Shown here in pieces: positions 1-50,748 of a stretch of 50,748 nt of DNA. Source of the DNA: a virus. Position 1 is the first letter of the stretch. Every line of letters starts with the position of its first letter. Location of the stretch: the IMG/VR virus record IMGVR_UViG_3300030382_003949, positions 1 through 50,748 of that record. The stretch is one strand, 5' to 3'. The translations under genes were made by a program, and so were the position numbers. Under the pieces are notes generated by a model. That model did not search any database and had not been told where the DNA came from. It saw only the letters and a program-made list of their open reading frames with translations.

Positions 1-388
1 TAAAAAGAAAGTTGAAGAAATAAAAGTAGCTCGTACACTAACTAATGATGATAGTGGAAAAGTATTTACTCTTTCTTCCGCCGGTGGTGCTTACTCAATA
101 ACACTTCCAACCGCTACTAGCGGTGAAGAAGGTGTTCATTATAAATTCATCGTAAAAGAAGAAACTCCAACTGCTGCTATTACTATAGCGGCTGGAAGCG
201 CAATCGTTAGTTTTGTAATGAAAGACGCTGGTGGCAATGCTTCTAATTCAACAGCAGGTACACAAATTTCCAATGTAATTGTTGGAACTTCTGCTCAAAA
301 AGGTGATTACCTTGAGTTATTGTGGACTGATGGAGAATACGTTGGAAGCGCACTTTCTAGTATTGATGACGCAATCACTACATCGTAA
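1..388 (+). CDS. 3' part of small virion protein that starts at 50625
   Basis: This open frame enters the window at its first base (codons begin at base 2) and stops with TAA at 386-388. The same sequence is found at 50672-50748, where the gene starts, so on the circular genome it is one gene of about 144 codons. The product is rich in Thr, Ser, Ala and Gly, with alternating hydrophobic positions that look like beta structure, and has no catalytic motif. It directly follows the major capsid gene. This position and composition fit a capsid decoration or other minor head protein, which is an inference. It is followed by a GC-rich hairpin at 420-449. Confidence 0.85.
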   Translation, partial: KKKVEEIKVARTLTNDDSGKVFTLSSAGGAYSITLPTATSGEEGVHYKFIVKEETPTAAITIAAGSAIVSFVMKDAGGNASNSTAGTQISNVIVGTSAQKGDYLELLWTDGEYVGSALSSIDDAITTS

Positions 389-27982: not shown

Positions 27983-28808
27983 GGAATAGTTCCTCCTGTT
28001 TTAGTCTGTTGTTTATTATCTTATGGTACTCTGGATTAAGTTCGCATCCTGTATAGTTGCGGCTTAATCTTTTTGACGTTTCCGCCACGGTGCCGGAACC
28101 CATGAAGGGGTCGAGTACCAACCCACCTTCAGGACTGCCGGTTTTTATGCATGGAGTTATCAACTCCATTGGGAACGTGGCAAAATGTGCTTCGGGATAA
28201 CTGGCAACTCTTGTCTGCCATACGTCCCTCTTATTTCTTTTGGGATATTTTGCGTCGTTGGTTGTTTCCATGATGCTTTCATGGTCGTAATAATATTTTT
28301 TGTTCTTGGCAAATAGGAATATGTATTCGTGACTGCTTGTCGGTCTGTCGGTTACTGATTCAGGTATGGGATTGTACTTTGACCATATGACGTCGCTACG
28401 AAGTATCCATCCTCGTTTCTGAAGGGCAAACGCCAATCTCCACGGCACTCCTATCAAATCTTTTGAAGTCAGTCCGGACACGCTCTTGTCTCTGTATCCC
28501 AATCTCTTGGCTCCTGAGAATCCTCTTCTTCCATCTGCATTGATCTCTGCTCCGGCAGCATAGCAGTCGCCTATGTTCAACCAGAACGTACCGTCATCCT
28601 TAGTAACTCTGTACACCTCATCAAAAACAAGGCAGAGTTGCTCAATATAATCGTCAATAGAATCTTCCAATCCTATTTGATTTTCATTTCCGTAGTCTCT
28701 GAGATTGTAGTACGGAGGCGACGTAACCGTAGTATTAACAACGCCTTCGGGAAAGCCCTTCAATACCTCACGGCAGTCTCCAACAAATATTTTGTTAATC
28801 ACGTCCAT
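27975..28808 (-). CDS. DNA methyltransferase (N4-cytosine / N6-adenine, beta-type order), 277 aa
   Basis: The enzyme transfers a methyl group from S-adenosylmethionine to a DNA base. The catalytic motif TSPPYYNLRDYG lies near the N-terminus and the AdoMet-binding motif DPFMGSGTVAETSKRL near residue 235. This order (catalytic first, FxGxG later) is that of beta-class enzymes. SPPY is common in N4-cytosine and some N6-adenine enzymes; the target site cannot be read from sequence. An ATG at 28826 would add six residues, but family members begin like MDVINKIFVGDC, so I use 28808. It overlaps a PD-(D/E)XK-like gene, which may be a restriction partner or a host-DNA nuclease. Confidence 0.88.
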   Translation of the reverse strand: MDVINKIFVGDCREVLKGFPEGVVNTTVTSPPYYNLRDYGNENQIGLEDSIDDYIEQLCLVFDEVYRVTKDDGTFWLNIGDCYAAGAEINADGRRGFSGAKRLGYRDKSVSGLTSKDLIGVPWRLAFALQKRGWILRSDVIWSKYNPIPESVTDRPTSSHEYIFLFAKNKKYYYDHESIMETTNDAKYPKRNKRDVWQTRVASYPEAHFATFPMELITPCIKTGSPEGGLVLDPFMGSGTVAETSKRLSRNYTGCELNPEYHKIINNRLKQEELFHA

Positions 28809-29280
28809 CATGTATCCACATTGCATTGTCCACTGGAAGAAAGGAATTGTTCCTTATCGCCTTGCCTCCGTTTATGGTTTCCTGAGTCTCGGTTTCCCAT
28901 GAATCAAATTTGAAGGCATAATTGCCCTCCTTGTCGGTGATCATCCAAGCCAGTATAGAATCGTCAGGTATGAGGTAAAGGAATCCGTAGAACCTGACCA
29001 TCATCATCTCCGACAGCATTTTTCCGAACTCTATTTTCTTGTGAGTTATCAGCCAAGAGCCGAAATTGTACAGTTGAGATACCGACATGTTTCGGCACTT
29101 GGATTCGAACACTCCGACCAGCTCGTTTCTTTTCACCATGATCCCGTCGCACTTTGCTGCAGATTTCTTGTCCGTTTCAAATATATCCACGTTCAGTTCG
29201 CGTTCTATTCTTTCAATCATTTTTCTTTCGTATTCGAGAGACTTCTGACCTCTTGGAGTGTTTATGTCTAGATTATTCAT
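28795..29280 (-). CDS. PD-(D/E)XK-type nuclease, 161 aa
   Basis: D45 in KCDGIMVK, and E59 and K61 in FESKCRN, make the pattern D-x13-E-x-K of this nuclease fold. An N-terminal helix rich in Glu/Arg (SLEYERKMIERIERELNVDI) precedes it, as in RecB- and Holliday-type nucleases. The 3' end overlaps the methyltransferase start by 14 bases, which suggests that the two work together. The ATG is preceded by a large hairpin (29290-29347) and not by a Shine-Dalgarno sequence, so translation may be controlled. It could be a restriction enzyme, a repair or recombination nuclease, or a host-DNA degrading enzyme. Confidence 0.65.
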   Translation of the reverse strand: MNNLDINTPRGQKSLEYERKMIERIERELNVDIFETDKKSAAKCDGIMVKRNELVGVFESKCRNMSVSQLYNFGSWLITHKKIEFGKMLSEMMMVRFYGFLYLIPDDSILAWMITDKEGNYAFKFDSWETETQETINGGKAIRNNSFLPVDNAMWIHDGRD

Positions 29281-29289
29281 AATGGTAGG

Positions 29290-29347
29290 GAGGCCATCGC
29301 CCTAGGAGCGGGGAGGAAAGGAGGTGTAAACCCCGCACGATGACCTC
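29290..29347 (-). ncRNA. Structured hairpin, element E1 of a repeated family
   Basis: In the minus-strand RNA, GAGGUCAUCG (29347-29338) pairs with CGAUGGCCUC (29299-29290), with one G-U pair. Inside it GCGGGG (29336-29331) pairs with CCCCGC (29313-29308). The loop is UUUACACCUCCUUUCCU. It fills the gap between two minus genes and ends nine bases before the ATG of the nuclease gene. The loop contains CACCTCCTTT, which equals the usual 3' end of bacterial 16S rRNA. A related hairpin is at 35873-35923. Confidence 0.7.
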
Positions 29348-29356
29348 ACAATTCTT

Positions 29357-29689
29357 TTAGGATTTCAAAGCCGATAGTAGTATTAAATATTTTTCGAGAG
29401 GTATTGAAACGTATGGTTCCATTCTGTCGGCACGAAAGATGACTCCGGTCTCTTCCTTCTCGGGCAATACCCATCTTGGAACGACCTTGCGTCTCTTGCA
29501 TCCATAATACAATCCTTCGATCTCGACGTCTCCCTTCTCATGTTGTGCTCCGCCTCTGTCCCTGTTGTAGGCTTCGAGTCCCACTTGAGTCGCTTCCTTT
29601 ACTGCCAGTCTCTGAAGTTCCGCCCCTCTTTGTCTGTTCCTCCGTCCCATTTTCTGGGATTTCGTGGTCAGTTTTCTTTTCATTTTCAT
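29357..29689 (-). CDS. Holliday-junction-resolvase-like nuclease, 110 aa
   Basis: The start region RNRQRGAELQRLAVKEA and the following DRGGAQHEKGDVEIEGL resemble small resolvase or endonuclease proteins of phages (E24, D54 and E56 are possible acidic ligands). In the usual E-x-K motif the acidic residue is replaced, as the sequence reads GCKRRK (about 63-68). The active site may therefore be altered or lie elsewhere. An inner ATG at 29650 is another possible start. The 5' part overlaps the next upstream gene by 152 bases in a different frame. Confidence 0.6.
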   Translation of the reverse strand: MKMKRKLTTKSQKMGRRNRQRGAELQRLAVKEATQVGLEAYNRDRGGAQHEKGDVEIEGLYYGCKRRKVVPRWVLPEKEETGVIFRADRMEPYVSIPLEKYLILLSALKS

Positions 29690-29933
29690 ATTCCTTTTCT
29701 ATTAATTCCACAAACGATTCGATGTTGCCGTTGTACTCCATGTACTTCGCAAGAAGATTGAAGTTGGCGGCAAGTGACGTAGTCACTACTGTTCTGAGGT
29801 GATTTTCGATTGCTCCTATTGACTTCTCCAAAGACGAAACGGCTCTGCGAATGACGTCGATATCCGATATGACGTAATTCACTTTCTTGTCGATCTGTCT
29901 CGTGGTCGGTCTTTTTTCCTTTGTTTTTGCCAT
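29538..29933 (-). CDS. Small helical protein with disordered tail, 131 aa
   Basis: The N-terminus KEKRPTTRQIDKKVNYVISD resembles a conserved start in uncultured marine phage proteins that lie beside replication genes. Helices follow to about residue 85 (ESFVELIEKEYENEKKTD). The last 45 residues are low-complexity and overlap, in another frame, the resolvase-like gene. The tail sequence is dictated by the other frame and is probably disordered. Function unknown. Confidence 0.65.
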   Translation of the reverse strand: MAKTKEKRPTTRQIDKKVNYVISDIDVIRRAVSSLEKSIGAIENHLRTVVTTSLAANFNLLAKYMEYNGNIESFVELIEKEYENEKKTDHEIPENGTEEQTKRGGTSETGSKGSDSSGTRSLQQGQRRSTT

Positions 29934-29946
29934 GAGGTTGTATCTC

Positions 29947-30213
29947 CTATTTTTTTGGCGAGTTGTAGTGTCCTACATACTCTATTTCTTCCGAATCTGA
30001 TTGGGCGTCGTTTGGAATCTCAACCTTTTTCGGTATTTGTACGCCGTTTTTCCTGATTTTTTCAATGTCTTTTCGGAGATTTTTTACCACTCCAATTTTT
30101 GAAGTTTTGTCGAAGAAGTAACTGCTGTTTTCCATCCACTCCAAAGCCTTTTCGATTATGCTCATTTCATTTTGAGATATCCATATTCCGTATTTGCCGA
30201 TTTCAGCTTTCAT
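29947..30213 (-). CDS. Hypothetical protein, 88 aa
   Basis: A compact N-terminal region (KAEIGKYGIWISQNEMSIIE) is followed by a helix with WMENSSYFFDKT and then a basic segment (VVKNLRKDIEKIRKNGVQIP); the C-terminus is acidic. Start and neighbours suggest it is co-translated with the helicase: it overlaps its 3' end by 11 bases. No family is recognised; a helicase accessory protein is possible from position only. Confidence 0.65.
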   Translation of the reverse strand: MKAEIGKYGIWISQNEMSIIEKALEWMENSSYFFDKTSKIGVVKNLRKDIEKIRKNGVQIPKKVEIPNDAQSDSEEIEYVGHYNSPKK

Positions 30214-31552
30214 TTTTCAATTCCTTTTTCTTTTTTTTGTTGAATCTTTTTATTTCGGACATGGCCTGTTCGGTACTGTTCAATATCATGCATCTGTCTC
30301 CAACCACTCCCAATAGTTTGCTCCCTGTTTTTCCGTACCTGTTCTTTCCGAGAACTACTTCTATTCCGTATTCGCCCGACATCGAGTCCTGATAATTGTA
30401 TCTCCAGTCGTAGTACATGAACAGTATCATTTCGGCATCCTGTTCGATGGAGCCAGAATCTCTCAAGTCCCTGAGTATCGGTCTTTTGTTCGATCTGTCT
30501 TCACATGCCCTATTGAGCTGGGACACCAGTATGGCAGCCATATCGTAAGTTTTGGCGGCCCGTTTGTACTGTTTCATGATGCTGTCCACCCTCAACCTGT
30601 TGTCTTCCACTCCTACCACGTCTATGAGACCTATGTAGTCGTCAACCACAACGTCGGGACGATGCTTTCTCACTTCTCTCATGGCTCGGTCTATGTCGAA
30701 AACGTCGTCGTACATTATGAGATTCTTGTATTTGTCGGCAATGATGTTTTTTACGGCCTCCAGCTCCTGAATGTCCTTGTCCTCGAAACTTCCCATTCTC
30801 ATCGTGTGATACGAAAGTGAATCGCTTTCGACTATTATGAGTTTCTTCATCATTTCCACGTTGGACATTTCACGATTGAAAACCAAAACCTTAAGCCCTT
30901 TGTTCAGAAGATTGCTGACTATATTTATGGTCATGGTGGACTTGAAGTGACCGGGTCTTCCCGCTATGACAGTTATCTCGCCTCTCGTCATTCCTCCTGT
31001 AAGGTCGTCTATAGGCTTGAATCCGAATGGAACCACGTGCTCGGTTGTCGTCATGTGTTTGGAAGTGTCTTCGAGAAGTTTGTCGAGATCAAAGTCTTTG
31101 CGGATACGCAGATTGAGTATGTCTTCTATTTCACGATTCAGTCTCTGCAGGGCCGTATGGGCTCCGTCTCCGTCCATATCCATCACTTTCTCTATTCTTC
31201 TAGATTTGTCTATGACCTTTCTTAGCAGCCATTTTTCGTAGACCAACTTCGCATAATGTTCGGCGTTTGCCGTAGTGGCAACTTCCTGAATCAGTCCCGT
31301 GAGATAATATCCGGGCGATTCCAAAGTCGTGTTCTTCGGCATCTGAGACAAAATGGTTATCGGGTCTATAACCGACGATCCTTCCCTGTGAAGATCGAGT
31401 ATGCATTTCCATATCTGTTGATGTGCCGAGTCGTAGAAAACCTTCTCTTCAGGAATATACTGAGATATTTGATCAATTACGGCGTTGTCGGTCATTGATT
31501 GACCGAGTATGAGACGCTCGGCCTCTAAGCTATGTGGAGAAAGACTGTTCAT
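30203..31552 (-). CDS. dnaB: DnaB-like replicative DNA helicase, 449 aa
   Basis: The product is a hexameric 5'-3' helicase for unwinding the fork. The N-terminal domain (about 1-110) starts with the usual PHSLEAERLILGQSM. The RecA-like domain has Walker A GRPGHFKST (198-206), Walker B VVVDDYIGLI (301-310), the VSQLNR element (343-348), LRDSGSIEQDAE (363-374) and a candidate arginine finger in KNRYGKTG (403-410). The Walker A differs from the usual GRPSMGKT but keeps K-S/T. The length is normal for DnaB. Neighbours are annealing protein, nucleases and SSB-like protein. No primase domain or loader gene is recognisable nearby. Confidence 0.92.
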   Translation of the reverse strand: MNSLSPHSLEAERLILGQSMTDNAVIDQISQYIPEEKVFYDSAHQQIWKCILDLHREGSSVIDPITILSQMPKNTTLESPGYYLTGLIQEVATTANAEHYAKLVYEKWLLRKVIDKSRRIEKVMDMDGDGAHTALQRLNREIEDILNLRIRKDFDLDKLLEDTSKHMTTTEHVVPFGFKPIDDLTGGMTRGEITVIAGRPGHFKSTMTINIVSNLLNKGLKVLVFNREMSNVEMMKKLIIVESDSLSYHTMRMGSFEDKDIQELEAVKNIIADKYKNLIMYDDVFDIDRAMREVRKHRPDVVVDDYIGLIDVVGVEDNRLRVDSIMKQYKRAAKTYDMAAILVSQLNRACEDRSNKRPILRDLRDSGSIEQDAEMILFMYYDWRYNYQDSMSGEYGIEVVLGKNRYGKTGSKLLGVVGDRCMILNSTEQAMSEIKRFNKKKKKELKNES

Positions 31553-31758
31553 TTCTTGGACTCCCCGTCAACTGCATAGACATACTTTTCTCCATCGATT
31601 TCAACAACTTTTATCTTATCAACATATCTCGTCGGCATATTTCTCTCAAAATCCAAATTTGAACTTAATACAAGTTTTCTCAAGTGTTTCAACCTTATCG
31701 GATTGTTTTCATATCTGAGGACTTTATACACGCTGTCGTAATAGTAACTGCTAAACAT
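31549..31758 (-). CDS. Small hypothetical protein before DnaB, 69 aa
   Basis: I take the ATG at 31758, which overlaps the upstream stop by eight bases (ATGTTTAG); a longer frame from 31794 would overlap it by 44. The product starts FSSYYYDSVYKVLRYENN and has a basic middle and a beta hairpin (IKVVEIDGEKYVYAVDG). It ends in an ATGA overlap with DnaB, so it is probably made together with it. Some phage proteins before dnaB are helicase loaders or initiators, but there is no visible motif for that here. Confidence 0.65.
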   Translation of the reverse strand: MFSSYYYDSVYKVLRYENNPIRLKHLRKLVLSSNLDFERNMPTRYVDKIKVVEIDGEKYVYAVDGESKK

Positions 31759-32242
31759 CCCCGGAGATGTCCATCTCCCTGACCAGTTTTGCAACAGGTA
31801 TCTTATGGTATCCGTTTGAATCGTTCCACTCCTCTTTATATACGTTTACGATGACTCTCTTTCCTTCTATCATATCCAAAGAAATTAAAGGCAGGAGGTA
31901 TCTTATTTTACCATTTATTTCCTTTTTATTCAAGGAAATTCCGAGATTTTCGAGGAACTTTTTGTAGTGAATGTTGCTGTTTCTCGATCCTGCGTCATAG
32001 TATCTGAACAGTCCTCTGTCCCTTAGGATGCGTCCTTCGAAATCAGGCCCGTTTATTCTATATCGAGGCCAGAACAAATCGCATACTCCACCGCTCTTGG
32101 TGGTTTTCTTTATTCTTTTTCGAAGCCCTATTATAGTTGCTTCGTAGGTTCCCGGCGTTATATTGGATTCTATGCCGCTTTCTTCGTAGAATACCCCGCC
32201 ATCGTCTTCAACGTCCTTGACGAGGTCTTTTATGCCTGCCAT
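31751..32242 (-). CDS. DUF669-like recombination accessory protein, 163 aa
   Basis: The product has the layout of phage DUF669-type proteins: an acidic start, then SNITPGTYEATIIGLRKRIK (about residues 25-44), a Trp/Tyr-rich beta region (CDLFWPRYRINGPDFEGRIL) and KRVIVNVYKEEWNDSNGYHK near residue 128. Such proteins accompany phage annealing proteins and probably bind single-stranded DNA. The start overlaps the annealing protein stop by one base, so the pair is translationally coupled. Confidence 0.55.
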   Translation of the reverse strand: MAGIKDLVKDVEDDGGVFYEESGIESNITPGTYEATIIGLRKRIKKTTKSGGVCDLFWPRYRINGPDFEGRILRDRGLFRYYDAGSRNSNIHYKKFLENLGISLNKKEINGKIRYLLPLISLDMIEGKRVIVNVYKEEWNDSNGYHKIPVAKLVREMDISGDV

Positions 32243-32838
32243 CAGGTCTTGATGACGTAGGAGTCTTTAAGGTCTTGTATGCGGTTAAGGGCCTTCTTGT
32301 AGTTTTTCGAGTTCAAGGTGCCGTCTTCCATATAACCTCTTATGGAGGCCTCGTCTTTTTCGTTGAGTCCCTTGATGGCTCCGCTGATTTCCTTCTTCCA
32401 CACTCCGTTCTTGTTCTTTTCGAGAGAGTTTACGTATTTGTTGTCGTCGAACTTGCCCATGAACACGTCGGCATTGAATCCGATCTTACTCAGCCCTTTC
32501 GTAAGGGCATCTGTGCTTACTTTTTTGGAAAAGTCGTCATCGACTCGGTTGTTGTGGTGATATCTGATGGAGCTGTTGATGGGCAGAGTTCCGTCGTTTC
32601 CGTCGTATTTGTACCAGAGGGTGGCTTGGTACAGGGAAAGCCCAACTTCTTCCATTATGGTAAAATTTTCATCGGAAACTCCCCATCCTATGCCGAAAGG
32701 CCCGAACGTTTCAGTTGCCGTTTTGATTTGGTATTGGGCTCCTATTGCCGTGAACCCTCCACGCTGATTTACTTTTGTCGTGAATTCGGGGTCGGTGGTT
32801 TCAACCGAGCTCCACAAATCCATGTTCTTTTTAGCCAT
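32242..32838 (-). CDS. Rad52/Sak-like single-strand annealing protein, 198 aa
   Basis: The N-terminal region carries QRGGFTAIGAQYQIKTATET, then FGPFGIGWGV and a beta part. The sequence ALTKGLSKIGFNADVFMGKF (near residue 111) is the recognisable block of this phage annealing-protein group. It anneals complementary single strands in recombination-dependent replication or end joining. Length and position before DUF669-like, DnaB and nuclease genes fit. A good AGGAGG site precedes the ATG. Confidence 0.78.
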   Translation of the reverse strand: MAKKNMDLWSSVETTDPEFTTKVNQRGGFTAIGAQYQIKTATETFGPFGIGWGVSDENFTIMEEVGLSLYQATLWYKYDGNDGTLPINSSIRYHHNNRVDDDFSKKVSTDALTKGLSKIGFNADVFMGKFDDNKYVNSLEKNKNGVWKKEISGAIKGLNEKDEASIRGYMEDGTLNSKNYKKALNRIQDLKDSYVIKT

Positions 32839-32881
32839 TGTAGGCCTCCTTTGTTTGTTAAATTGGCGTATTGATGGATTT

Positions 32882-33049
32882 TTACACTTCGTCCATATCC
32901 ACTAAAGACCGATGCATCTCGTCGACTTTTTTTTCGACTCGCGTAAGCCTTAGTATTGTGCTGATCGTGAGAAACATGATCAGAACCATCGTAAATTCCC
33001 AATAGGGAAAGTATTCGCTCGAGAAAAGAGCTTCCCAATAATATCTCAT
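32882..33049 (-). CDS. Small one-TM protein, 55 aa
   Basis: The ATG at 33047-33049 is preceded by AAGGAG (spaced about nine bases), and the frame ends with TAA at 32882-32884. The product has one TM helix (TMVLIMFLTISTILRLTR, about residues 20-37), with a Trp/Tyr-rich N-terminal part (RYYWEALFSSEYFPYWEF) and a charged C-terminal helix. A longer frame on the same strand that runs into the annealing-protein gene is not real. The function is unknown; it may modify the host membrane in early infection. Confidence 0.65.
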   Translation of the reverse strand: MRYYWEALFSSEYFPYWEFTMVLIMFLTISTILRLTRVEKKVDEMHRSLVDMDEV

Positions 33050-33082
33050 TCTTGTACTCCTTGTTTTACTTTGTTGGTAATC

Positions 33083-33376
33083 TTACTCGTTGATGGCATC
33101 CCAGAACTTCTTCAGTTGAACAAGTCTTTTTCTATCATGTTCAACCAGTTTTTCGTCTTCTTGCATCTTATCTTTTTTCCGTTCTCTATCATTTTTTGTG
33201 TGAGCACTCAATGCCTGATTTGCAATCCTCTTCATAGCGGTTTTACTTCCTTCCGACAATGAAATCTTTCTCAATGCCTCCAAGTATATCTGCATGTGAT
33301 TTTCAAGATCGAGAAGCATCTCGTTTATGATGCCGTCCACCCTCAACCTGTTGGTCGTAATTTTTTTATCGTTCAT
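33083..33376 (-). CDS. Charged helical hypothetical protein, 97 aa
   Basis: After an AAAGGAG site the product starts MNDKKITTNRLRVDGIINEM and is almost wholly helical and highly charged (for example HTKNDRERKKDKMQEDEKLV). A coiled coil is likely. The upstream tiny gene (33366-33494) overlaps its start by 11 bases. No family is recognised. Confidence 0.65.
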   Translation of the reverse strand: MNDKKITTNRLRVDGIINEMLLDLENHMQIYLEALRKISLSEGSKTAMKRIANQALSAHTKNDRERKKDKMQEDEKLVEHDRKRLVQLKKFWDAINE

Positions 33377-33494
33377 CAGTTATGATCTCCTTTATTTTTT
33401 TAACGTAGGGGCATGGCAGCATCCTCCAAGCCAACCACACATTTTCAACAGTCATCCCGTTAAAAAGAAGTCTTGCACTTTTGCCCCTAACCAT
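33366..33494 (-). CDS. Tiny protein linking nuclease and helical gene, 42 aa
   Basis: ATG at 33492-33494 overlaps the stop of the Cas4-like gene (ATGGTTAG), and the frame ends at 33366, 11 bases inside the next gene. It is the only long open frame in this gap and keeps the tight overlap pattern of the operon. The peptide is basic and hydrophobic (GKSARLLFNGMTVENVWLAW), with Trp and Pro residues. Too short for standard gene callers; function unknown. Confidence 0.6.
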   Translation of the reverse strand: MVRGKSARLLFNGMTVENVWLAWRMLPCPYVKKIKEIITDER

Positions 33495-34272
33495 TCAATC
33501 CTCCACCGCAAGGTTCATAGAAGTTGCAGTATTTATCGTTGCATTCCCATTTGTAGACGGGAGATATTCCGAGATTCACGTCCGGAATGTTGCCGTCCTT
33601 AACAAGTTCGTTTACAGTTGTCCAATATATCATAGCTTCATCTATGAATTCTTCACCAATATCCACTTCTTTCATCTTTGAATTGTCTTTGTTGTAGTAG
33701 CATATTTTCATGGATATGCTTTCAAGTTCGTAAAATCTTTTGGCCCATAGCCCGTAGGTGGCAAGTTGTGTAAAGTAATTCGTTGATGGGTTTGGATCGG
33801 GATACCTGCCAAACATTTTCTTCCACTTGAATGAATTGCATGTCTTTATGTCATAGAGAACGTGATCGTCTCCTTCAGCATCGAGTAGAGCCAAGTCGAT
33901 AAAGCCACGGACGTTTAAATCTTCAAGGTATATTTCTTTTTCTATCAGCAATGGGAGTCCATATTGCACGGCGTGGTCGGTAACGGCCTTCTGTACGTCT
34001 TCATGAACGAGATTTCCGAGCCTGAACAATCTTCTGGTGGTTTCATCGACTGGCTTTCTTTCGGAAGCATCTATCCGTGTACTGAAGTAATGCTTTCTCG
34101 CACATAAACCGGCCACACTGCTGTGAAACCAAGAATTGTCCTTGTACCGTGAGGCGACGTGTTTTTCGTCCAAGCCGACAAGGTACTGATTATATATTGA
34201 GCTGAGTTTGTTTTCCGTTTCCATTTCCACCTTTTTGATCCTTTCGGATATACGGAAATTACTTAAATTCAT
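33487..34272 (-). CDS. Cas4/RecB-like nuclease with candidate 4Fe-4S cluster, 261 aa
   Basis: PD-(D/E)XK exonuclease motifs in order: H90 in GNLVHEDV, D126 in GFIDLAL, D141 and K143 in YDIKT, and Q169 to Y173 in TQLATYG. Four cysteines, C57 (LCARKHYF) and C244, C249 and C255 near the end (ECNDKYCNFYEPC), match the plan of Cas4 and AddB-type proteins, where one N-terminal and three C-terminal Cys hold an iron-sulfur cluster. The likely role is 5' or 3' end processing in phage recombination. No cas1 or cas2 lies nearby, so it is not part of a CRISPR system. It is the first gene after the palindrome region. Confidence 0.8.
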   Translation of the reverse strand: MNLSNFRISERIKKVEMETENKLSSIYNQYLVGLDEKHVASRYKDNSWFHSSVAGLCARKHYFSTRIDASERKPVDETTRRLFRLGNLVHEDVQKAVTDHAVQYGLPLLIEKEIYLEDLNVRGFIDLALLDAEGDDHVLYDIKTCNSFKWKKMFGRYPDPNPSTNYFTQLATYGLWAKRFYELESISMKICYYNKDNSKMKEVDIGEEFIDEAMIYWTTVNELVKDGNIPDVNLGISPVYKWECNDKYCNFYEPCGGGLNG

Positions 34273-34318
34273 TAAGTTTCAAAAACCTTTTTTTTAAAAT
34301 ATTTATTTTTTTTGGGTA

Positions 34319-34351
34319 ATATATATATAATATAATATATATATCATATAT
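34319..34351. repeat. TA-rich tract beside the large palindrome
   Basis: Almost only alternating A and T with two small slips, continuing into the left arm of the palindrome at 34347. It should melt easily or bend. A matching TA tract lies beside the GCTAT repeats at 42411-42430. Confidence 0.8.
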
Positions 34352-34382
34352 GGCTATAGCCTTGCAAGGCCATAGCCATATA
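34347..34382. promoter_or_regulatory. Near-perfect 36-bp palindrome, candidate operator, terminator or origin element
   Basis: Two 18-bp arms meet at CTTG|CAAG with only one mismatched pair (34358 with 34371). The core reads GGCTATAGCCTTG on the left and CAAGGCCATAGCC on the right. It lies in the 136-bp gap between the ParB-like gene and the Cas4-like gene, both on the minus strand. It can be a DNA-binding site for a dimeric protein, a cruciform, or a terminator of the ParB-like transcript. A second palindrome CTCTTTAAAGAG is at 34388-34399. Confidence 0.75.
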
Positions 34383-34387
34383 CTGCC

Positions 34388-34399
34388 CTCTTTAAAGAG
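34388..34399. repeat. Perfect 12-bp palindrome CTCTTTAAAGAG
   Basis: It lies ten bases after the ParB-like stop on the minus strand and six bases before the large palindrome. It may add to the end of the ParB-like transcript or be a protein-binding site. Confidence 0.6.
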
Positions 34400-34408
34400 A
34401 ACTTACTA

Positions 34409-35197
34409 TTACCAGAATCTTAATTTATTTGAGGTTCTGGTATTGTAGACATCCTCTATTTGACGAAGATATTCGCCTTTGTTGCTTGCCTTTTTTATCG
34501 TACTCCCGAGATACTCCATTTTACTCTTCATGCGATTATGATCGTAATCAGAGTGTTTGAAGCAATCCATAAGAGCCAGTACGAAGTATCTGTCCGAACA
34601 ACGTTCGCACGACTCTTTGAGAGATTCCAGCATTTCCGCCTTTTCCGTAGCTTCCTTCAGGTTGTTTATCTTCATTTCTCCGGTCTTGAACAGGTAGTAC
34701 ATAGAGCCTCCCCATCCATCGAAGAAAATGGCAAACGCCGTCGAGAAGTTCAGGTCGTATTTCTTCATAAATCCGGCAAAAATCCTATAATCGTGAATAC
34801 CTGATTCTACCCAAGCATTCAAAAAATCATAGGCATTCCACTTGTCCTGCGAATTGTTCAGCTTTGCCACGGTTGATATGTCTATATCTTGCGTAGTATT
34901 ATACTGAATGGGGATGCCGAGTTCCGAGCACGCAATATATCGGTGCTGTCCGTCGAGTATCTCCATGTCGCCGTTGACGAGAATCGGATAAAACCTCGTA
35001 AGGTCTTTTTGCCGTATGGATTTACGGAGTCTTACAACTTTGCTTCGGCTGATTGGTCTGTTCCCCTTGAAAAAAGAGAACTGCGTATAGTTTTTAGTGG
35101 AAAACTGCTCCACTTCTTGAACTTTACGAGAGCCGATTGCAGCAGTGTCTATGATGGTTCCTCCATTTGTTGTGGAGGTCGTAGTTTCTCTGCTCAT
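34409..35197 (-). CDS. ParB/Srx-like nuclease or DNA-binding protein, 262 aa
   Basis: The motif EILDGQHRYIACSELGIPI (near residues 79-97) is the ParB/sulfiredoxin-type core (DGxHR), and the preceding VVRLRKSIRQKDLTRFYPIL fits the strand-helix before it. The rest is helical with several Cys (CERCSDRY) and a basic C-terminal part. In phages such proteins act as regulators, partition-like proteins or CTP-binding switches; a nuclease activity has been described for some. The palindrome directly after this gene could be its binding site, which is an inference. Confidence 0.75.
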   Translation of the reverse strand: MSRETTTSTTNGGTIIDTAAIGSRKVQEVEQFSTKNYTQFSFFKGNRPISRSKVVRLRKSIRQKDLTRFYPILVNGDMEILDGQHRYIACSELGIPIQYNTTQDIDISTVAKLNNSQDKWNAYDFLNAWVESGIHDYRIFAGFMKKYDLNFSTAFAIFFDGWGGSMYYLFKTGEMKINNLKEATEKAEMLESLKESCERCSDRYFVLALMDCFKHSDYDHNRMKSKMEYLGSTIKKASNKGEYLRQIEDVYNTRTSNKLRFW

Positions 35198-35222
35198 TTG
35201 CTACTCCTTTTGTTGTGTAAAT

Positions 35223-35519
35223 CTAATCCGCAGTGAAAATTTGCATAACGCCGTCACTTGAACCAGTTTTACGTTTTCTGTAATCAAGAACATTCTCCTT
35301 GAATGTCTTGCCTTTGTCCATAATTTCTTCGATTTCATCGGCATATTCGTATTCGTCCTTGTCGTATCCATATCCTTTACAGCATTCTCCACAGTATGCG
35401 TAACCACCTATGATCACGCCTCCGTTTACTTCATCCCCATAAGGGCCGTTGCATCCGTCGCAGAAGACGCTGTCGCCTAAATTACAGACCTTTTTAAGTT
35501 TAAAATCTTTAAAGTTCAC
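35223..35519 (-). CDS. Cys-rich zinc-finger-like acidic protein, 98 aa
   Basis: Two pairs of Cys, CDGC and CGEC (with one extra Cys directly after), are 19 residues apart in VFCDGCNGPYGDEV...YCGECCKGY, so one zinc site of LIM/ribbon type is likely. Around it are many Gly, Tyr, Asp and Glu. The C-terminal half is charged and helical. It overlaps the next upstream gene by 11 bases. The function is unknown; a host-protein or RNA-polymerase-binding factor is possible in such an early region. Confidence 0.65.
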   Translation of the reverse strand: MNFKDFKLKKVCNLGDSVFCDGCNGPYGDEVNGGVIIGGYAYCGECCKGYGYDKDEYEYADEIEEIMDKGKTFKENVLDYRKRKTGSSDGVMQIFTAD

Positions 35520-35724
35520 GCTTAATTATTTCCTCCGATCTTGCATAAATTACCCAAGCCAAGTATTCGTGATGTATTCCTTTTTTTTTCAAATCATCAG
35601 AAATCTCCGTAAAGTAAGACTTTAAGCTTGATAACCTATCTTCATTCTTATTTGTTTTTAGAATTTTGATGACTTTTTTTATTTGACTGTCGCTCAAAAT
35701 TTCCGATAGTTTTATTTGCAGCAT
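35509..35724 (-). CDS. Hypothetical helical protein, 71 aa
   Basis: The start MLQIKLSEILSDSQIKKVIK is followed by a charged helical middle and the sequence HHEYLAWVIYARSEEIIKRE. No metal or nucleotide motif is visible. The ribosome binding site is AAAGGAAAG. It is the last gene in the run before the 200-nt gap with inverted repeats. Confidence 0.6.
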   Translation of the reverse strand: MLQIKLSEILSDSQIKKVIKILKTNKNEDRLSSLKSYFTEISDDLKKKGIHHEYLAWVIYARSEEIIKREL

Positions 35725-35743
35725 GATTTACTTTCCTTTTATT

Positions 35744-35863
35744 TTATTTGGGCAGTGAGAGCAATGCTACGTTATGCAGCCTCATGTTATATCCGATCTC
35801 TCTTGTACTTCAATTTCAGACATGGAAGGCACGTGTACTTTATTAAGCCATCTGCCCAAATAA
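35744..35863. repeat. Perfect 12-bp inverted repeat enclosing 96 bp
   Basis: TTATTTGGGCAG at 35744-35755 is the exact reverse complement of CTGCCCAAATAA at 35852-35863. The repeats border the small ORF at 35787-35870, whose first codons lie in the right copy. It may be a large stem in the transcript, a recombination scar or a pair of binding sites. Confidence 0.7.
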
Positions 35864-35870
35864 CATTCAT
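35787..35870 (-). CDS. Possible tiny CxxC protein, 27 aa
   Basis: ATG at 35868-35870 and stop TAA at 35787-35789. The peptide contains LIKYTCLPCLKLKYKRD, a Cys pair in a basic context, as in small zinc or redox proteins. There is no Shine-Dalgarno; instead, hairpin E2 ends two bases before the start, a similar arrangement to hairpin E1 and the nuclease gene. This parallel is the main support for the ORF. Confidence 0.4.
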   Translation of the reverse strand: MNVIWADGLIKYTCLPCLKLKYKRDRI

Positions 35871-35872
35871 TT

Positions 35873-35923
35873 AGAGGGGTTGGGAGCGGGAGGAAAAGAG
35901 ACGAAACCCACTCCCCAAGCTCT
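35873..35923 (-). ncRNA. Structured hairpin, element E2 of a repeated family
   Basis: In the minus-strand RNA, UUGGGGAGUGGG (35918-35907) pairs with CCCGCUCCCAA (35890-35880) with one bulge and one G-U pair. AGAG/CUCU (35923-35920 with 35876-35873) can close it. The loop is UUUCGUCUCUUUUCCU. The plus-strand core GAGCGGGAGGAAAAGAG matches E1 at 29306-29323 closely. Both are in the same orientation, upstream of a minus-strand ATG without Shine-Dalgarno. Confidence 0.65.
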
Positions 35924-39608: not shown

Positions 39609-39630
39609 GTTTCACTTCCTTTTTTTTAAC

Positions 39631-39684
39631 GTGCCGACCCCAACGCTCCGTTGGTTTCATACCTCCAATTCCACGAATCGGCAC
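39631..39684. other. Two-stem structure in the ATPase leader
   Basis: GTGCCGA (39631-39637) pairs with TCGGCAC (39678-39684), and inside it CCAACG (39640-39645) pairs with CGTTGG (39649-39654). The structure ends 22 bases before the ATPase ATG on the minus strand. It has no tRNA T-arm and no U tract on the minus strand. Confidence 0.6.
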
Positions 39685-39715
39685 TAAAGTCTAAATCTTT
39701 AGGGATTGAAACGAA

Positions 39716-39778
39716 GGCTGGTGCGGATAGTTACAACGCCAAGTCATGCTTGACATGCACGTGCCACCGATACCAGCC
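39716..39778. other. Stem-closed 63-nt element in the ATPase leader
   Basis: GGCTGGT (39716-39722) pairs with ACCAGCC (39772-39778). Inside there are further short stems, for example GTCA/TGAC and the palindrome GCACGTGC. This is about the size of a small structured RNA. It has a tRNA-like closing stem but lacks the T-loop sequence, so I do not call a tRNA. Confidence 0.5.
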
Positions 39779-39793
39779 CAAGTTTCATTTGCA

Positions 39794-39991
39794 CTACGTC
39801 TTGAATCTAGCTCCATAAAGGTCTTTAAGGTTTTTCAGGTGCTCCAATCGTTTTGCAGCTGATCCATTCGGCTTTATTTTGCCTTTTGCCTTAAGACCCT
39901 CGTAAACGAGTATCAACTCGCGTAGAGTTATTGACGATGTCGTACTTTTCACTTTTGCCGGTTTATCCGACTTATTTGATGAAAGCGTCAT
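39794..39991 (-). CDS. Small basic protein, 65 aa
   Basis: A Ser/Thr/Lys-rich N-terminal tail (SSNKSDKPAKVKSTTSSITL) precedes a helical bundle-like C-terminus (RELILVYEGLKAKGKIKPNG, then AAKRLEHLKNLKDLYGARFK). DNA binding is plausible because of charge. It starts in an ATGA overlap with the previous gene. No family is recognised. Confidence 0.6.
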   Translation of the reverse strand: MTLSSNKSDKPAKVKSTTSSITLRELILVYEGLKAKGKIKPNGSAAKRLEHLKNLKDLYGARFKT

Positions 39992-42197: not shown

Positions 42198-42279
42198 AAA
42201 TCTTAGATTACATATAGCCTACATTATGTATAATTAATTTTAACCCAAAACTTTAATCTCAATAAGAAAACAACCGGGA

Positions 42280-42305
42280 TGGGGGCGGGGTAAAAGAAGG
42301 CCCCA
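42280..42305 (-). other. Possible third hairpin (E3) of the E1/E2 family
   Basis: TGGGG at 42280-42284 can pair with CCCCA at 42301-42305, with GCGGGG and AAAAGAAGG between. The order GCGGGG, A-rich AAAAGA, CCCC is like E1 and E2 in the same orientation. The outer stem of E1/E2 is absent, so this is a tentative member. Confidence 0.4.
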
Positions 42306-42369
42306 CATTGTAAGCCTATTTTTCCAATTTCCACACGTTTTAAGTTATTTCTTTAATTACTTTAGCTTT

Positions 42370-50624: not shown

Positions 50625-50748
50625 ATGAGAAGTGATTATCTAAATCAAAATAGCGGTCAAACAGCCGGATTTAAAAAGAAAGTTGAAGAAATAAAAGTAG
50701 CTCGTACACTAACTAATGATGATAGTGGAAAAGTATTTACTCTTTCTT
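50625..50748 (+). CDS. 5' part of small virion protein (continues at base 1)
   Basis: ATG at 50625, one base after the capsid stop. The reading frame continues through the 77-base overlap and, on the circle, to the stop at 386-388. The start of the product is polar and basic (MRSDYLNQNSGQTAGFKKKV). See the entry at 1-388 for the rest of the description. Confidence 0.85.
   Translation, partial: MRSDYLNQNSGQTAGFKKKVEEIKVARTLTNDDSGKVFTLS
50672..50748. repeat. 77-bp end overlap identical to bases 1-77
   Basis: Bases 50672-50748 equal bases 1-77 without a mismatch. This shows that the contig closes into a circle. A 77-base overlap is the size of a common assembler k-mer, so it is more likely an assembly overlap than a biological terminal repeat; it also lies inside a coding sequence. 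Confidence 0.95.

Follow-up and report, generated by a model that had tools for sequence, protein, structure and literature searches.

A conserved hairpin RNA behind the RusA gene of uncultured marine phages, with a possible anti-Shine-Dalgarno loop

Background

The closest precedent for the phage hairpin described here, E1, is provided by the alpha-r14/cuckoo/CcsR RNAs of alphaproteobacteria, in which a conserved loop resembling the anti-Shine-Dalgarno (aSD) sequence is carried on variable stems, as it is in E1. In the alpha-r14 (NfeR1) small RNAs, for example, the ultraconserved aSD motif CCUCCUCCC is found in the unpaired regions of hairpins whose stems are highly different (PMC10746234). 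The CcsR RNAs are cut by RNase E from a transcript behind a protein gene, ccaF1 (PMC10253847), and this location behind a protein gene is matched by that of E1 behind RusA. Unlike alpha-r14 and cuckoo, E1 is a single hairpin with a two-part stem and a 3′ bulge, it lies in a phage gene context and it has no Rfam match. Moreover, the CCUCCUCCC motif is absent from the E1 loops, which contain either CCUCCUUUCCU or UCCUUUU(U). Judged by anatomical analogy, E1 resembles the aSD-loop RNAs without being one of them, since its motif differs and no family model matches it.

Other described systems share fewer features with E1. The alpha-R8 RNAs SisA-D of Caulobacter have a core, UUUCCUCCCU, that has been called an anti-Shine-Dalgarno signature (PMC12559287) and resembles the E1 loop in composition. 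However, these are host-encoded small RNAs acting in trans, with the motif downstream of a weak hairpin, whereas that of E1 occupies the loop of a strong hairpin. In Gram-positive bacteria, RNAs of the LhrC, RsaE and RNAIII type pair with the Shine-Dalgarno (SD) regions of mRNAs through UCCC or CU-rich loop motifs (PMC4132741). In contrast to E1, they are host small RNAs with multiple sites, and their sequence and structure are unrelated to it.

A further type of phage element is the T7-type intercistronic RNase III site, a hairpin with an asymmetric bulge located between the genes of an operon. E1 is likewise an intercistronic double-stranded stem with an internal bulge, but its loop sequence is conserved, which is not needed by the T7-type sites. 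Processing of T7 phage RNA by RNase III is mentioned in PMC5371410, which refers to Dunn and Studier 1973 for the cleavage.

Genome context and relatives

The window, i.e. the whole stretch of DNA analysed, is 50,748 bases long and corresponds to positions 1-50,748 of the IMG/VR virus record IMGVR_UViG_3300030382_003949. Given a direct terminal repeat of 77 bases (window 1-77 and 50672-50748), the record is probably a complete genome. The presence of genes for a P22-like portal and an SU10-like capsid protein identifies it as a tailed phage. Near the capsid genes there are two tandem paralogous genes (1117-1610 and 1592-2086) with 67% DNA identity, homologs of which were present in 4 of the 4 E1-bearing genomes compared and in none of the three E1-less ones.

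The replication module is a leftward block extending from ~42.1 to 27.3 kb, with genes for a DnaB-like helicase, a RusA-like resolvase, exonucleases and a DNA methyltransferase. The gene for the RusA-like Holliday junction resolvase (29357..29689, minus strand; PHROG 244, E 7.4e-9) is directly upstream of E1 and has orthologs in the relatives. Downstream of E1 is a gene encoding a 161-aa protein with no family match (28795..29280, minus strand), and other genes occupy its place in the relatives. At 34319-34382, within an intergenic gap, there is a near-perfect 36-base palindrome around GGCTATGGCCTTGCAAGGCTATAGCC, adjoining an AT-rich inverted repeat. No tRNA or tmRNA was found in a search of the window.

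Among annotated phages, there were no DNA-level matches to the 27-36.5 kb stretch, and the helicase homologs were all below 60% identity, with the best among the matches listed at 30-32%. The relatives used here are uncultured IMG/VR contigs (designated L001 and so on) retrieved via the helicase, the AAA protein and RusA; those bearing E1 are uncultured marine phage contigs.

Structure and conservation of the E1 hairpin

E1 is a hairpin of 58 nt (29290..29347, minus strand), supported by its fold, by covariation and by a covariance-model match. Reading 5′ to 3′ along the minus strand, it consists of the 11-nt 5′ arm of an outer stem (29337..29347), the 5′ arm of an inner stem, GCGGGG (29331..29336), a 17-nt pyrimidine loop, UUUACACCUCCUUUCCU (29314..29330), the inner 3′ arm CCCCGC (29308..29313), a one-sided 3′ bulge of 7 nt, UCCUAGG (29301..29307), and the outer 3′ arm, also 11 nt (29290..29300). 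In the relatives, the bulge reads UUCCGGA, GUCCGGA, GUCGCGA or UCCCGGGAAAU. The resulting fold, with stems of 11 and 6 bp, has a predicted energy of -27.4 kcal/mol and a z score of -3.9 against shuffled sequences, compared with -1.6 for the plus strand. A pseudoknot between loop and bulge (GGAA with UUCC) of 3-4 bp is possible in every E1 copy by eye, without clean covariation.

An initial annotation, made from the letters of the window, had described E1 together with a second hairpin, E2 (35873..35923), as related elements with G-rich/C-rich stems on one strand. The coordinates, the shared minus strand and the agreement with the direction of the surrounding genes were all borne out, and so was the folding of the stems, E2 having z scores of -2.5 on the minus strand and -1.6 on the plus strand. 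Also correct were the distances to the following ATG, 9 bases from E1 and 2 from E2.

E1 was found in the window and in seven relatives forming two clades (L001-L004; L009, L013 and L016), under a strict design consisting of an outer stem, a 3′ bulge of 7 or 11 nt, an inner 6-bp stem and a pyrimidine loop. In 8 of 8 copies, it lies 3-68 nt 3′ of the RusA stop codon. RusA is thus the constant neighbour of E1, and the gene downstream differs among the phages and is of several kinds. In other relatives, for example L010, L011, L012 and L018, RusA is directly adjoined by the next gene, with no E1 between them. The second clade is the more divergent, its RusA being 74% identical to that of the window, and its hairpins have the same two stems and 3′ bulge at the same site. 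The suggestion that the hairpin might be a mobile element did not survive this comparison, since there is one copy in each of the seven relatives, always behind RusA, and the window is the only one of 49 whole records with two copies.

Covariation was counted on five close sequences (the window and L001-L004), the L009 clade being left out because it was misaligned by MAFFT. All 85 of the 85 pair cells in these sequences are standard pairs. Five E1 pairs are altered on both sides, compared with 0-1 in slid controls. In RNA of the gene sense, 11 of the 85 cells are G.U and none is A.C; because each G.U pair would be an A.C mismatch on the opposite strand, this argues for RNA of the gene-sense strand. 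A role as DNA, such as a cruciform for RusA, is unlikely for the same reason, the G.U pairs of the stem being found in one strand only.

The loop is even more constrained. Between the window and L001-L004, the fourfold-degenerate sites of RusA have reached saturation (identity 0.23-0.45), yet over the same comparison no E1 loop differs by more than one substitution and one inserted U. Such near-invariance beside saturated neutral sites implies strong selection on the loop sequence, with the stems selected mainly for pairing.

A descriptor scan of the related loci returned 24 similar hairpins in the sense orientation, compared with 3 in antisense and 3 in reversed sequence. When the exact patterns of both loop types were searched across IMG/VR, only the known contigs were recovered, plus unrelated matches without the two-stem design. 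In Rfam 15, no family reached gathering score for the window or for eight related loci; at E <= 5, the 28.5-42.7 kb region gave no relevant match, and three weak matches were unrelated to E1 or E2. A hairpin of E1-like outline that is not behind RusA was seen in L124 (2336-2410), with a 14-bp outer stem, a 7-bp inner stem, a 7-nt 3′ bulge and a pyrimidine loop.

The initial annotation had considered that the hairpin might be a selected RNA element and had proposed a covariance-model search of related phages. That search recovered E1 orthologs, and the compensatory stem changes, the near-invariant loop over saturated sites and the gene-sense orientation with its G.U pairs favour selection. There is very little doubt in our minds that E1 is a functional conserved RNA.

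Complementarity of the loop to Shine-Dalgarno sequences

The E1 loop of the window contains 11 nt identical to the 16S rRNA 3′ tail, CACCUCCUUUC, and the corresponding identities are 9 nt in L001-L004 and 6 nt in the L009 type; the tail used is a generic bacterial sequence. Compared with shuffled loops, the 16S-tail match has p values of 0.001-0.009 in one clade and 0.04-0.05 in the L009-type clade. Of the phages' own genes, 24-36% have an SD region with a perfect match of at least 6 nt to the loop, compared with 3-9% for coding sequence. Shuffled loops match 10-16% of SD regions on average, giving p values of 0.007-0.018 in one clade and 0.025-0.083 in the other, several of which are borderline; values from one clade are not independent. 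Pyrimidine content by itself accounts for part of the SD match. The L009-type loop has lost CCUCC; that the SD match is present in both clades despite their differing loops indicates that the fit to SDs was retained through the change in sequence. The E2 loop, put through the same tests, has neither SD nor 16S-tail preference.

No consistent best target emerged across the phages. RusA and an SSB-like gene rank high in several, but not in every one, and a single specific target in cis or in trans was rejected on this basis. A cis pseudoknot with the SD of the next gene is also not conserved, as that gene has no SD in the window, L001 and L004 and the match is of 5 bp only in L009, L013 and L016.

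The E2 and E3 sites

E2 has a 9-bp stem, GGGAGUGGG (35915-35907) with CCCGCUCCC (35890-35882), a 16-nt loop, UUUCGUCUCUUUUCCU (35906-35891), and a short outer stem. The core GAGCGGG-AGGAAA-GAG that it shares with E1 on the plus strand occurs at two sites in the whole window, E1 and E2. A covariance model built from five E1 sequences, including that of the window, was used to search 1.17 Mb of DNA from related phages. The output comprised the E1 orthologs, the L009, L013 and L016 copies, and then E2 with its copy in L021, with nothing more up to E = 10. E2, as the next match after the E1 orthologs, scored 22.8 bits (E = 0.062; 35876-35916), and in the window's own genome its E value is 0.0027. 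The L021 copy adds no independent evidence, as this contig is near-identical. The likeness of E1 and E2 is therefore better than chance, but modest. Where the relatives have hairpins at the E2 locus, their stems and loops are different; the L022 loop, for example, includes AAUUAU. Given the core, the model match and the fold, the best reading of E2, with moderate support, is as a second, diverged copy of the E1 design, seen in this phage only. For E2 taken alone, chance likeness is possible.

The ATG after E2 opens a frame of 27 codons in which nothing suggests a gene; the first real gene beyond it begins at 35724 and has an SD. Between E2 and that gene, a larger structure is predicted (35741-35866, minus strand), closed by a perfect 12-bp inverted repeat, TTATTTGGGCAG / CTGCCCAAATAA, and ending immediately before the SD of the gene.

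E3 (42280..42305, minus strand), proposed as a possible third copy, was rejected: the model finds no match there up to E = 10. It is a C-rich tract that forms part of a block conserved ahead of the leftward operon, and its stem is broken in L024. The block itself (42255-42320) is conserved as sequence in the relatives, in the form GTGTGGAAATTGGAAAAATTGG..TACAAT..CTTTTACCCCNCCCCC, and is promoter-like.

Possible modes of action

Our preferred reading, put forward tentatively and at somewhat less than even odds, is that E1 is an anti-Shine-Dalgarno hairpin. E1 would be made within the leftward transcript of the replication module, in the gap behind the RusA gene, where the stem would serve as a scaffold presenting the pyrimidine loop as the active part. 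The exposed loop would be an anti-SD seed that pairs with purine-rich SDs in the messages of the phage and possibly of the host. Pairing could take place in cis, within one polycistronic RNA, or in trans following processing, and translation of the paired messages would be lowered or reordered. E2 would be a diverged hairpin built to the same plan, whose loop has lost its fit to SDs. A frozen loop requires a partner that does not drift.

If this is correct, these phages tune translation by the same generic trick as the host aSD-loop small RNAs. Such hairpins are already known as host small RNAs; here, one would be fixed in a phage replication operon and absent from Rfam. E1 is also a short, testable element that its covariance model recovers.

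The main rival, which we regard as a less likely but serious candidate, is a protein-binding operator. A pyrimidine-preferring RNA-binding protein of the host or phage, for example ribosomal protein S1, a cold-shock protein or a phage repressor, would read the loop and adjust expression of the RusA segment. A conserved protein partner would predict just such a loop, almost frozen while the stems covary, and E2 and further leader hairpins of these phages likewise have pyrimidine loops closed by G-C stems. However, comparison with three E1-less genomes gave no replication-module gene that they lack and the E1-bearing phages share, the genes exclusive to the latter being restricted to the structural region. 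Furthermore, the loop change between the clades preserved SD complementarity, which a protein site need not do.

Two further possibilities are unlikely, and about equally so. E1 could be a structural mimic of the 16S rRNA 3′ tail, displaying the anti-SD, capturing SDs or a factor that reads the tail and thereby producing a global shift of translation in infection; the loop would have drifted between clades yet kept its fit to the phages' SDs. Alternatively, it could be an intercistronic hairpin for RNase III processing or 3′-end protection, dividing the polycistronic message after RusA in the manner of T7 early RNA. The 17 stacked pairs, the one-sided 3′ bulge and the location in the gap behind the RusA stop would suit such a site. 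For RNase III a helix suffices, however, and the near-invariant 16-nt loop, which would not be needed, is the most conserved part of E1 over saturated sites.

Less probable still is the view of the initial annotation that the hairpin governs an immediately downstream gene lacking an SD, for example by blocking or replacing the SD. It is true that 6-9 nt separate the end of the hairpin from an SD-less ATG in the window, L001 and L004, and that the loop of L002 and L003 complements the SD downstream of it (AGGAAAG with CUUUCCU). Nevertheless, the downstream gene varies, 5 of the 8 E1 copies (L002, L003, L009, L013 and L016) are followed by an SD, the L009-type loop forms only 5 bp with it, and E2 precedes the short frame with no gene-like character. 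Translation control as such is plausible through the anti-SD-like loop; what is not conserved is control of an adjacent SD-less start codon. Finally, a lack of any function, with E1 and E2 alike by chance as two GC-rich stems, might be argued from their modest similarity alone, measured with a model that included the window's E1, but it is refuted for E1 by the covariation and the conserved loop of its orthologs, which span two clades, and retains hardly any probability.

Other structured leaders in these phages

Hairpins with U-rich loops (GG-UUU..UUUUCC) are found before SDs in many of these phages, with 21 in the sense orientation and 1 in antisense. In more distant marine phages, strong hairpins with loops of the form UUU-N3..8-UUUU were seen, in sense orientation, before the SD and ATG of various genes (L056 1959, L073 2567, L122 1271, L125 4304, L126 4383 and L136 4589). 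The general U-loop set was rejected as a single conserved family, as L022 and L023 carry other loops at the E2 locus.

The leader of the AAA ATPase gene (window 39609-39795, minus strand) is highly structured. In L002, L003, L022, L023 and L026, this leader has a hairpin with a TTTnGTCATGnTTT-like loop on variable stems, and a second hairpin in the relatives has the form GCTYGACA..TGTCGAGC, followed by AAAAAAAGGAAGCG-ATG. The hairpins of this leader look like another covarying RNA family.
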